Shown here: positions 23,521-28,577 of the stretch, piece after piece
How the letters are laid out: each line of letters starts with the position of its first letter
Numbering within the stretch: the stretch's first letter is position 1
Assembly (NCBI GenBank): GCA_002256995.1
Contig: NCGX01000025.1
Span: 1-39,508 of the forward strand
Reading direction: 5' to 3'
Length of the DNA stretch: 39,508 nucleotides
Source of the DNA: Hydrogenophilales bacterium 16-64-40
Lineage (GTDB): Bacteria; Pseudomonadota; Gammaproteobacteria; Burkholderiales; Thiobacillaceae
The notes under the pieces: generated by a model
Database searches by the model: none
What the model was told of the DNA's origin: nothing
What the model saw: only the letters and a program-made list of their open reading frames with translations
Position numbers and translations under genes: made by a program

Positions 23521-24591
23521 TTACCCGGGGGCGACCGGCTCGGCAAAGCGCTCGCGGATGGCCACGATGCCGGGCAGTTCCTGCAGGAACACCTCGACCA
23601 GCGTCGGGTCGAAATGCCTGCCCTTGTTGTCCTTGATCAGGTCCACCGCGGCCTCGACCGTCCAGGCTTTTTTATAGGGCCGCACCGAGGTCAGCGCGTC
23701 GAACACGTCGGCCAGCGCCGCGATGCGCCCGGATTGCGGAATCGCCTCGCCCGCCAGCCCGTTGGGATAGCCGCTGCCGTCCCATTTTTCGTGGTGGGTG
23801 AGTGCAATCTCGCGCGCCATGCACATGAGGGTGGAATCGTCTCCCTCGAGCAGCTTGCCGCCGATGGCAGCATGGGTCTGCATGATTTCCCACTCGTGCG
23901 GCTCGAACTTGCCCGGCTTCAGCATGATGGCATCGGGGATGCCGATCTTGCCGATGTCGTGCATCGGACTGGCGTTGAGGATCAGATCGCAGTCGGCTTC
24001 GCTCCAGCCGATGGCGCGCGCGAGCAAGGCGCAGCTGTGACTCATGCGCAGGATGTGGTTGCCGGTTTCCTCGTCGCGGTACTCCGCCGCCATGCCGAGC
24101 CGCTGCACAATCTGCAGGCGGGTACGCCGCAATTCCTCGGTGCGCGCCTGCACCATGTCCTCCAGCACGGTTTTCTGGTCGTACATCAGGCGGTGGGCCA
24201 TTTGTGCGTCCAGCAGGTTGCGCACCCGCATCAGCAATTCGTTGCGATCGAAGGGCTTGCCGATTAAGTCGCGCGCGCCGGCGGCCAGCGCCCGCAGCAG
24301 GTAGTCCTTGCCGTGCTGGGCAGTGAGAATGACGATAGGGGGCAGCAGTGGGTCGTTCAGCGCCTTCAGCTGCTCCATCACCTGGTAGCCGTCCAGGTGC
24401 GGCATGTTGATGTCGAGCAGGATGAGTACGGGCTGGGTGATCCGATAGAGGTCGACAACCAGACGCGGATCGTCCACCAGCACCAGGCTCTGATAGCCCT
24501 GGCTGCGCAGCATCTTGTCCAGCAGCTTGAGATTGGCCGGCTCGTCATCGACGATGAGGATGCACTCCCTGTTCAGGGATTCGGTGCTCAT
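23521..24591 (-). CDS. Response regulator with HD-GYP domain, c-di-GMP phosphodiesterase (RpfG type)
   Basis: 356-residue protein: receiver domain (about 9-130, phospho-Asp60 in [14 protein letters not shown]) joined by a helix to an HD-GYP domain. The metal and catalytic motifs are intact: [29 protein letters not shown] and the trailing [13 protein letters not shown]...RPYK. Such proteins hydrolyse c-di-GMP when activated by phosphorylation. Its start overlaps the stop of the hybrid kinase by 4 bp (ATGA), so the kinase is its probable partner, as RpfC is of RpfG. Lowering c-di-GMP would release the YcgR brake encoded at 6391. Confidence 0.94.
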
Positions 24592-27500
24592 GCGTCTTTC
24601 TCCTGTGGGTCCGGCAGCAGGCAGCGATCAAGCATGCCGAAAAAGCCGGCGACGTCGATGGGCTTGGTGAGATAGTCGGCAAACCCTGCCGCGCGACCGC
24701 GCTCGATGTCGCGGGGCATGGCGTTGGCGGTGATGGCGACCACCGGAATGGCGTGCAGCCGGGCATCGGCCTTGAGCACCTCCAGCACCTGGTAGCCGTC
24801 CATGCCCGGCATGTTGATGTCGAGCAGGATCAGCTCGGGACGGCGCGACTGCGCCAACTCGATGCCCAGTTCCGGCGTGTGGGCGGTGAGCAGGCGGATA
24901 TGGGGGCGTCGCCCCAGAATCTGCGCGACCAGCTTGATGTTGGACGGGTTGTCCTCGATGTAGAGCACGACGTGCTGGGGCGCTTCCAGGCGCATCGGTG
25001 CGACGCCATCATCCGCCAGGCCAGCGTGATCCTGGGCGACGTCGGCCACCGATTCGAGCGGCAGTTCGATCCAGAACGTGCTGCCCGCGCCCGTCTCGCT
25101 CTCGACCCCCACCGCGCCGCCCATCATCTCGACTAGGCGCTGGGTGATGGTGAGACCGATGCCGGTGCCCTCGATGTCGCTGTGCTCGGCATCGAGCCGG
25201 CTGAAGGGCTGGAACAGTTCCTTCAGCCGCCCGGCGGGGATGCCCGGGCCGCTGTCGCGGACCCGGACGCGCAACCGGTCGGCGCCCTCCAGCTCCACCT
25301 CGATGCGCACGCTGCCACCATCGCGGTTGTATTTGATGGCATTGGACAGCAGGTTGAGCAGCGCCTGCTTGAGCCGCGTGCGGTCGGCCCGCACCGCCGT
25401 GCCCTTGAGCCCCTTGTGGCTGAGCTGGATGTCGCGCTGGTCGGCCAGCGGGCCGACCAGCGCCAGACAATCCTCGACGACCGGGCACACCTCCACCGGC
25501 TCCAGCGACAGGTCGACGTGGCCGGACTCGACCTTGGACAGGTCCAGCACTTCGTTGATCAGTTCCAGCAGGTGATGGCCCGCCTTGAGGATCTCCTGAA
25601 CGTTGTCCTGGTGCTCGTCGGGCAGGGTGGCGTCGTACTCCATCAGCTGGCCGAAGCCGAGGATGGCGTTCATCGGCGTGCGCAACTCGTGGCTCATGCT
25701 GGAGAGAAACTCGGACTTGGTCCGGTTGGCGCGGTCGGCCTCGTCGCGGGCGGCGATCAGCGCCCGTTCGACCTCCATTTGCTCGGTGATGTCCTGCACG
25801 GTGCCGCTCAGGCGGATCAGCTTTCCTGCCGCATCGGTTTGGGCCTGCGCCAGTTCATGCACATGGCGCACGCTGCCGTCGGGCCGCACGATGCGATGAA
25901 CCACGTCGTGGCGGCCGCTGCGCTCAGCCAGTTTTTCGCTTTCATTCACCCGTGCCCGATCGTCCGGGTGAATCGCCGCATGAAAGGCCTCGACGCTGGG
26001 CGCGAAACTGCCCGGATCATGGCCGAAGATGCGGTAGATCTCGTCCGACCAGGTGAGTTCGCCGGTGACCAGATCGGCAGTCCAGTTGCCGATACTCGCC
26101 AGCGCCTGCGCCTCGCACAACTGACGCTCGCGTTCGGCCAGTGCGAGTTCCGCGCGCTTGCGCGCATCGATATCCTGCACCACGCCCAGCATCTGCAAGG
26201 GCTTGCCCGCGGCGTCGCGCACCACTGCACCGCGCTCCAGCAGCCAGCGCTCGCTGCCATCGGGCCACACCACGCGATGCTCGATCTCGTAGGGCACGTC
26301 GCGCTCGATGCAGGCGTTGATGGCGTCGATCACCGCCTGGCGGTCGTCGGGGTGGATCACAGCGAGGAAATTGTCGTAGGACGTCTCCAGATCCCCCGCG
26401 GGATAACCGAACAGCGGCGCGATGCGTTCGGTCCAGAACAACTCGCCGGTCTGGATGGCCCATTCCCAGGTGCCGATGTTGGCGAAGAGCTGGCCGCGGC
26501 GCAGCCTTTCCTTGTGGGCTTCCGCTGCCTGTTCGGCGCGCTTGCGGGCCAGGGCGCTGCTAATGACATCCGCCATGAGCCTGAGCGGCTCGATTTCGTC
26601 CGGTGACCAGTCGCACCGACTGCGAACGGCATCAAAGCCGACAAAGCCGAAGGTTTTTCCCCTCTTTTGCAGCGGAAAGGCAAACAGCGACCGGATCTGC
26701 TGGTCTTCGAACAAGGCCTTTTCCATGGCGGCCTCGGGCGGCAAGTCGGCCACATCGGGCACGACGATCAGGCCGCCGGCGGCTATCTGCGCCCGCCACC
26801 AGGGCGCCCGCTCCAGCGGCATGGCCTGGACCTTGTCGCACTGAGGATCGATGCCCTCGGCACACCACTCGTGGGTGTTGCTCATGCGCGCGCCATCTTC
26901 AGCGAACAGGAACAGGTAGGCACGGTCGGCACCCAGGTGCTCGCCGCTGCGTTGCAGGGTCCGGTCGATGGCCGCGTCCATCTCCGCCGCGGACGCGGCC
27001 AGCAGATCGGCGCCCGCCTCCGCGATCAGGCGCCGCAATTCGCCTTGCCGGCGCAACGCATCTTCGGCCGCCTTCACATGGGTAATGTCGGTGCGCAACG
27101 ACACGTACTGATAGGGTTTGCCCTCGCTGTCCAGAAAGGGGGCGATGGTGGACTCCACCCAGTAGCGACTGCCGTCCTTGCGCCGGTTACAGATTTCGCC
27201 CTGCCAGACAATGCCGCCGGAAATGGCGCGCCACAGGCTTTGATAGAACGCCGGCGGGTGCTCGCCCGACTTGACGATGCGATGATTCTGTCCCAGCAGC
27301 TCGCCGCGCGTATAGCCGCTGATCTGGCAGAACTTGTCGTTGGCGTAGGTGATGTTGCCCGCCGCGTCGGCAATGCTGACAATGGCGTGGTGGTCCAGCG
27401 CCAGATGTTCGCGCTCGCGCATGTAAAGGGTGGTTTCCAGGCGCTGTCGAATGGCGGCGTTCTGCCTTGCCCGCCGGGCCCGCAGGGTCACCACGGATAC

Positions 27501-28577
27501 CAGATAGTCGGGCAGCACGGGTTTGACCAGGAAATCGTCACCGCCAAAGTAAAGCGCATGCAGTTGGCGGGGGATGTCGGCCTCGGCGGAAAGGAACAGG
27601 ATGGGCAGGTGCCGCTGTTCGTCGCGTTCGCACAGCACTGCCGCCAGCTCGGGGCCGCTCGCCCCGGCCATGTTCACTTCGAGCACGGCCACGTCGGGGA
27701 CGAAATCGCTCAGCGCGTCCATGATCCGCAGGGGCTGCGACAGGGTGCGCACCGCCATGCCGGCCGCGCGCAGCACGGCGGCATGGGTTTCGAGCAGCAG
27801 CGGGTCGTCGTCCACCAGCAGCACGCGATAGGGCTGCGGCGGCTGGCGACCGGTAAGCGCATCCAGCAACTCGATCAGCCGGCCGGGGTCCACCGGCTTC
27901 ACCAGATAACGGCAGGCCCCGGCGCGAAAGGCCGCCAGCCGCGCCGCCAGGTCATCGCGTGCCGAGACCAGGACGACGGGCGGGCGGCGTGCCTGGTTGG
28001 CCTTGATTTTCGCCAGCAATTCGGCGCCGGCGGCGTCATCGTCGGGGAAGACCACCTCCATCACCACCGCGGCGGGATGTTCCGCATCCGCAGCCATGCA
28101 CGCGGCGCAGAATCCGGCCGACTCGGCAAACACCTGCACCCGGTAGCCGTCGTCCTGCAGGGCCTGGCTCAGGTAGCCGGCCTGCACCGGATCGGCCTCG
28201 AGCATGAGGATCAGCGGCGAGCGATCGAGTCGCAGCGGCTGGGCCGGAACGCTGAGGGGGATGCATGCCAGCTGATCCATCCGCTCAAGATCGTTGCCGA
28301 TGGCCTGCCACTCCGTTTCGGTGGGCGCCGCCCCGGCCTTGAGCAAAGCCGCCAGCCGGGCCTCCAGCGCGAACGCTGCAGCCGACATCGGCTGCATGTC
28401 GAAAAGCCCTGCCGAGCTGGTGAGGCGCTGCACCAGACGATGCAGCGCCTCCGCCTCGGCCGGATTCCAGACGGCGAGGTCCTGGACATGGGCACGAACG
28501 GCTTCCATCCGGGCGGAGAGCTGGTCGGTAAACTGGCGGCGAAGTTCAGCCAGGGTGTCGGCGATGGGCAATGGCAT
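24588..28577 (-). CDS. Hybrid histidine kinase: degenerate Hpt, REC-REC, PAS, GAF, PAS-PAS, kinase, REC
   Basis: 1329-residue protein with no membrane helix or signal peptide, so cytoplasmic. Domains: Hpt-like helix pair (about 1-110; [12 protein letters not shown], with Gln50 where the phospho-His is expected), receiver 1 (about 121-243, Glu174 at the phospho site), receiver 2 (about 250-370, Glu300 at the phospho site), PAS (about 385-505), GAF (about 512-690), PAS (about 700-820), PAS (about 825-945), HisKA (His about 962 in [11 protein letters not shown]), HATPase (NAIKYN, DSGPGIP, GTGIGL) and a C-terminal receiver with intact Asp about 1253 ([14 protein letters not shown]). The conserved Lys and Ser of receivers 1 and 2 are kept. 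The signal is unknown. Confidence 0.93.

Follow-up and report, generated by a model that had tools for sequence, protein, structure and literature searches.

We report that a hybrid histidine kinase encoded in a 39,508-nucleotide stretch of the genome of Hydrogenophilales bacterium 16-64-40 (contig NCGX01000025.1; hereafter the window) has lost the expected phospho-accepting residue from all three domains of its N-terminal module, a histidine phosphotransfer domain (Hpt) followed by two receivers (REC1 and REC2): Gln50, Glu174 and Glu300 (Q/E/E) stand where most relatives read His, Asp and Asp (H/D/D). The same triplet recurs when these positions are scored in relatives from two further species, L009 (the same as G078 and L119) and L120 (the same as G094), while a fourth relative, L124, has kept E/E and deleted the Hpt. 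As to what the module now does, we favour over neutral decay, while giving it about an even chance, that it has been retained as a phosphorylation-independent structural or docking part.

The three substitutions were first noticed in a reading of the DNA without database searches (the sequence-only reading), and both the codons and an alignment of 66 distinct module rows bear them out. The Hpt column holds His in 58 rows, at least two of which (L010 and L124) contribute misaligned residues of rows without Hpt; Asp is found in 58 rows at the REC1 site and in 62 at the REC2 site, where Glu occupies position 300 in 4 of the 66. As that reading had also stated, both receivers retain their Ser and Lys switch residues (S205/K227 in REC1, S330/K352 in REC2), and the C-terminal receiver keeps its Asp (Asp1253). 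What it missed is residue 128 of REC1, the second of the acid pair, which is Ala in the window; the acid at this position has a role in Mg binding. REC2 has kept both acids, Ser and Lys, that is, everything but its Asp. An AlphaFold2 model of the N-terminal part (mean predicted local distance difference test score, pLDDT, 89.3) shows a bundle of four helices followed by two receiver folds, from which a long helix leads on towards the PAS block, so that the Hpt and receiver folds are predicted to be intact, as had been anticipated. In this model strands 170-174 and 296-300 end in E174 and E300, and Q50 belongs to helix two (39-58) of the bundle; neighbouring acids are therefore not the true phosphosites, a possibility rejected by alignment and model alike. 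With Gln50 in a four-helix bundle the first domain is a pseudo-Hpt, an Hpt fold lacking the phospho-accepting His, and its Pfam match is borderline (21.0 bits in one run and 24.9 in another, with a cut-off of 24.6; the His-bearing domain of L121 reaches 39.5). Ser54, four residues after the His column, was rejected as a marker of the loss: among the 58 rows with His, 49 have Gly there, and Ser, Ala and Asn also occur (5, 1 and 1 rows). A single-strain or sequencing error is likewise rejected, Q/E/E being common to three genomes (the contig of G078 and JAHJNP010000130.1 are identical and were counted once). Judged by these residues, the module should be unable to accept phosphate at its former sites.

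The kinase core appears competent to phosphorylate itself and to work through either the C-terminal or the HD-GYP receiver. The window and ten aligned relatives all carry its motifs (the N, G1 and G2 boxes as well as His963 and Asp1253), with small variants at non-key letters, and the HD-GYP partner encoded next to it has its receiver Asp, HD and GYP motifs in the window, L119, L120, L124, L121 and L169. Three stretches of the kinase match Pfam Response_reg (PF00072), the family by which receivers were recognized. Among the best 25 of 167 NCBI family rows for the kinase no model but TIGR00229, a generic PAS model, came up to its cut-off, and among the best 25 of 91 rows for the HD-GYP protein none did. 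No free-standing Hpt that might replace the lost one was seen in the same genome with PF01627 (E <= 0.01), whose eight matches all lie in larger frames. A CheA-sized frame of 695 aa carries one of them and a frame of 2006 aa four; two frames that matched the kinase as well (886 and 1004 aa) carry one apiece, and the remaining match is the window's own.

Searches with the module covered 117 genomes of the family, 48 of which gave a match at E <= 1e-20 (no more than 16 candidates from each being scored in the rows listed), and 399 of the order, of which 42 did so at E <= 1e-40 with four candidates scored from each; whole protein and module were also searched by patterns in a genome collection, the best 80 of 532 relatives being kept. 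H/D/D accounts for 53 of the 66 rows; Q/E/E, H/N/D and gap/D/D were found three times each, and Q/D/D, Y/D/D, H/E/D and H/E/E once each, the H/E/E row being L124 and one of the 53 H/D/D rows L010, both without a real Hpt. This strain does not differ alone: two more species share its state, and most relatives outside their clade are H/D/D. According to PMC12632262, His is missing from 0.9% of Hpt domains (90/10,312) and Asp from 2.0% of receivers (3,111/152,269). Losing all three is rare, though the losses, being in one protein, are not necessarily independent. The same Hpt-REC-REC module precedes GGDEF instead of a kinase in 3 of 3 tested relatives of about 560 aa; two relatives of similar size, about 550 aa (L153 and L159), have Asn at the REC1 phosphosite and keep both acids. 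Hpt is missing, with REC1-REC2 staying, from L124:7104-10757, L125:1-1134 and L172:6119-9691, apparently by separate deletions. In Nitrincola lacisaponensis (L013:5932-10176) a stop splits the kinase into a sensory open reading frame (ORF) of 926 aa and a kinase-receiver ORF of 488 aa.

In the REC1-REC2 tree the Q/E/E trio and L124 form one clade (support 100/99), with L121, which reads H/N/D and has Ser at residue 128, as the next outgroup (96/88). In a ten-taxon tree of five PAS, kinase and receiver domains these four separate from L121 and all others with support 100, the order inside the four being weak (54-75), and in a quick 66-row tree L121 pairs with L172 at 73. Because most relatives outside the clade read H/D/D, Q/E/E is the derived state. 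Parsimony on the 66-row tree required at the fewest one change for the REC2 Asp, five for the REC1 Asp, eight for the Hpt site and 12 for residue 128 (Hpt absence was a state set by hand for five rows, the trait columns were left in the tree and 16 of 63 forks stayed open), which implies that Hpt and REC1 fail repeatedly in the family and that the REC2 Asp failed once in the sample.

The four members of the clade (the window, L119, L120 and L124) also share the gene order cheR-cheD-cheB-kinase-HD-GYP-cheY-cheZ. Of 18 hand-picked genomes of the genus searched for cheB, 13 had a match at E <= 1e-60 (the clade itself accounting for three) and 5 had none; in the other ten cheB-bearing members (10/10) the order is cheB-cheY-cheZ, without any match to the kinase or the HD-GYP protein above threshold. 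A sigma-28-like motif follows cheB, intact or degenerate, in the eight insert-free members whose cheB ends were compared, and an exact match stands between the HD-GYP gene and cheY in the window (23398-23423), so that the kinase and HD-GYP genes were apparently inserted between cheB and the leader of cheY; the window holds two matches to it with at most three mismatches, the shuffle average being 0.36. In the draft genomes of L121 and L093/L122 the kinase lies on another contig than cheB. Across the wider family an HD-GYP relative occupies the same locus in 14 of 28 loci, several of the other loci being short or truncated. A second hybrid-kinase gene sits between this kinase and the HD-GYP gene in L123:5284-8625 and L010:11315-14404, an arrangement absent from the Q/E/E clade, L121 and L169.

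That the front end was converted into a fixed module, as the sequence-only reading proposed, stands in part. Recurrence, the predicted folds and signs of purifying selection support it; the Hpt, at least, is dispensable, since the sister L124 keeps E/E without it. Within the trio the Nei-Gojobori ratio of nonsynonymous to synonymous substitution rates (dN/dS) is 0.23-0.40 for Hpt, 0.15-0.24 for REC1 and 0.06-0.18 for REC2 (0.06-0.34 for the other domains), and it lies below 1 for these three domains in every pair compared, although pairwise dS values are noisy; with 0.06-0.40 within the trio, the three domains are under purifying selection. Nor do branch lengths reveal faster evolution of the silenced domains: the ratio of trio to rest is 0.18 for Hpt, 0.17 for REC1 and 0.19 for REC2, with 0.15-0.32 for five other domains, in a test of low power with overlapping bootstrap ranges (9 taxa per domain, 40 bootstraps; GAF and PAS3 were not fitted, and the trio stem includes time before the losses).

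Several observations weigh against retention for a function: (i) the Hpt value of 0.40 is the top dN/dS of any domain in any trio pair, from L121 to the window REC1 (0.67) and Hpt (0.50) exceed all others of ten domains, and from the window to L124 REC2 (0.34) and REC1 (0.29) exceed all others of nine. (ii) L124 lacks the Hpt although the leader after its cheB is still alike, and L096/L125 and L172 lack it too, as it seems independently of L124. (iii) Residue 128 of REC1 varies often in the family. (iv) Purifying selection on a fold within one polypeptide need not mean signalling. (v) The three Q/E/E species are one clade, so the link between relocation and loss is a single event that may be coincidence, and a cause cannot be claimed for the loss and the insertion into the che operon. 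The serious rival is accordingly neutral decay, in which relay partners were lost, phosphosites drifted and domains are now disappearing with nothing gained. The raised ratios, the deletions of Hpt, the 12 changes at residue 128 and the borderline Pfam match all speak for it; the branch lengths, the ratios below 1, the acids, Ser and Lys retained by REC2 and the good predicted folds speak against it, and we regard it as possible but on the whole unlikely.

We are more doubtful still of a phosphomimic lock, in which Glu would hold one or both receivers active and the front end permanently on, as the sequence-only reading also suggested; for REC2 this idea overlaps with the structural role favoured here, so the two do not exclude each other. 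Glu is the most frequent residue in Asp-less receivers and can partly activate many response regulators, yet the idea failed in some tested cases (PMC12632262), and Asp-to-Glu is a one-base, mild substitution. E/E is found in L124 as well, whereas REC1 of L121 has Asn rather than Glu. The suggestion fares differently in the two receivers: REC1, without its Asp and one acid of its pair, looks more like a degenerating domain than like a clean phosphomimic, and a mimic is not the natural reading there, while REC2 keeps the four other catalytic residues, so that Glu300 could plausibly act as one there. Improbable is a third reading, that REC1 and REC2 bind c-di-GMP (cyclic di-GMP) or another small molecule fed back on a kinase whose partner degrades c-di-GMP: the pseudo-receiver of Caulobacter ShkA binds c-di-GMP (PMC7010744), the partner here is an HD-GYP protein and PleD (rank 1) and ShkA (rank 14) are among the structural neighbours, but the window's pseudo-receivers are N-terminal rather than between ATPase and receiver, and the structural matches are generic tandem-receiver matches (template modelling score 0.26-0.34 of the query, root-mean-square deviation 10-18).

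Pseudo-receivers are a described class (PMC12632262, PMC4395418), to which REC1 (A128, E174) and REC2 (E300) belong by the definition in PMC12632262. Glu is commonest at their Asp position, and how the bacterial ones work is an open question, according to that paper; here two of them follow each other, preceded by a pseudo-Hpt, at the start of a hybrid kinase that is otherwise intact. ShkA (PMC7010744) is likewise a hybrid kinase with a pseudo-receiver, a true C-terminal receiver and a c-di-GMP context, and is a precedent for a pseudo-receiver as kinase input; it differs in having one pseudo-receiver between ATPase and receiver, where the window has two, with a pseudo-Hpt, before the PAS domains, and no ShkA-type pseudo-receiver was found at the former place in the window, going by Pfam domain order (more diverged receivers were not searched for). 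PleD is the best solved match to the window's receivers by sequence profile and by fold, although overall superposition of the tandem receivers on PleD, 3luf/3mf4 and ShkA is poor. Its output, as that of the Hpt-REC-REC-GGDEF proteins, is GGDEF rather than a PAS-histidine kinase, and one of its receivers stays phosphorylatable (PMC12632262). The window's gene pair resembles RpfC/RpfG, a kinase gene that adjoins and overlaps a REC-HD-GYP gene (here 23521-24591). RpfC has a membrane sensor and a working C-terminal Hpt; in the window the sole Hpt found is N-terminal and carries Gln, and no strong membrane segment was seen (the top 19-residue Kyte-Doolittle mean is 1.33). Plant pseudo-HPt proteins, which also lack the His of the Hpt, are free-standing, whereas the window's version is a domain of a bacterial kinase. 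Among the literature matches listed, no paper dealt with this protein or with a pseudo-Hpt and two pseudo-receivers in one bacterial kinase. New here are the loss of all three phosphosites by a single protein, the natural intermediates of that loss and its co-occurrence with the che-operon insertion.

Table 1. Features of the kinase gene and its surroundings, in window coordinates
Feature	Position	Strand	Basis
Hybrid histidine kinase, 1329 aa, ATG start: Hpt-REC1-REC2-PAS-GAF-PAS-PAS-HisKA-HATPase-REC	24588..28577	-	ORF and Pfam
Pseudo-Hpt, residues 5-104, four-helix bundle	28266..28565	-	Borderline Pfam Hpt; AlphaFold2 helices 5-33, 39-58, 62-81, 87-104
Gln50 codon CAG; His in most relatives	28428..28430	-	Alignment; codon read directly
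REC1 pseudo-receiver, residues 121-242	27852..28217	-	Pfam and AlphaFold2
Ala128 codon GCC; Asp in 50/66 rows	28194..28196	-	Alignment and codon
Glu174 codon GAG, REC1 phosphosite	28056..28058	-	Alignment, codon and AlphaFold2
REC2 pseudo-receiver, residues 250-365; acids 256/257, Ser330, Lys352 present	27483..27830	-	Alignment and AlphaFold2
Glu300 codon GAA, REC2 phosphosite	27678..27680	-	Alignment, codon and AlphaFold2
Long predicted helix, residues 356-394, from REC2 towards first PAS	27396..27512	-	AlphaFold2
PAS-GAF-PAS-PAS sensory block	25773..27425	-	Pfam
HisKA and HATPase; H-box SHELRTP with His963; N, G1, G2 boxes present	25038..25730	-	Pfam and alignment
C-terminal receiver; Asp1253, Thr, Lys retained	24618..24974	-	Pfam and alignment
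REC-HD-GYP response regulator; start overlaps kinase stop; HD and GYP motifs, receiver Asp60 present	23521..24591	-	
cheB, upstream neighbour; long ORF, conserved part from ATG at 29783	28713..29864	-	
cheY, downstream neighbour	22962..23372	-	
Sigma-28-like site before cheY, exact match to motif	23398..23423	-	

Elsewhere in the window a PAS/HAMP chemoreceptor (33196-34831, minus strand) is split over two frames, 33572-34831 and 33196-34008, and is either frameshifted or mis-assembled; its homologue in L120 reads through in one frame.

These observations would fit the following course. The ancestor would have been a soluble hybrid kinase whose N-terminal Hpt-REC1-REC2 input module was joined by a long helix to the PAS sensors, usually paired with a REC-HD-GYP regulator whose predicted activity is c-di-GMP breakdown. 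One lineage of the genus has the two genes between cheB and cheY; its module would accept phosphate at none of the three sites and, we infer, is retained on the PAS-linked helix in a structural or docking role that does not depend on phosphorylation, in which Glu300 may fix REC2 in one conformation. The core would still autophosphorylate His963 on PAS/GAF input, and the phosphate would then pass to Asp1253, straight to Asp60 of the HD-GYP regulator, or both. The data show the sequences with their core motifs, the derived state, the insertion and the folds as predicted, whereas every biochemical step, including the phosphate route, and the retention for a function are inferred. It is a long shot that, on entering the chemotaxis operon, the pair swapped its phosphorelay input for a phosphorylation-independent one, in which pseudo-Hpt and both pseudo-receivers form a docking platform for chemotaxis proteins (CheY, CheB or CheA) and c-di-GMP breakdown is coupled to chemotaxis with no phosphotransfer. 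Taken together, relatives of the same architecture span working (H/D/D), half-lost (H/N/D, Q/D/D), frozen (Q/E/E) and deleted (E/E, no Hpt) states, and the branch to which E/E maps is also that of the move into the chemotaxis operon; this natural series could serve to test the cause and the effect of phosphosite loss.

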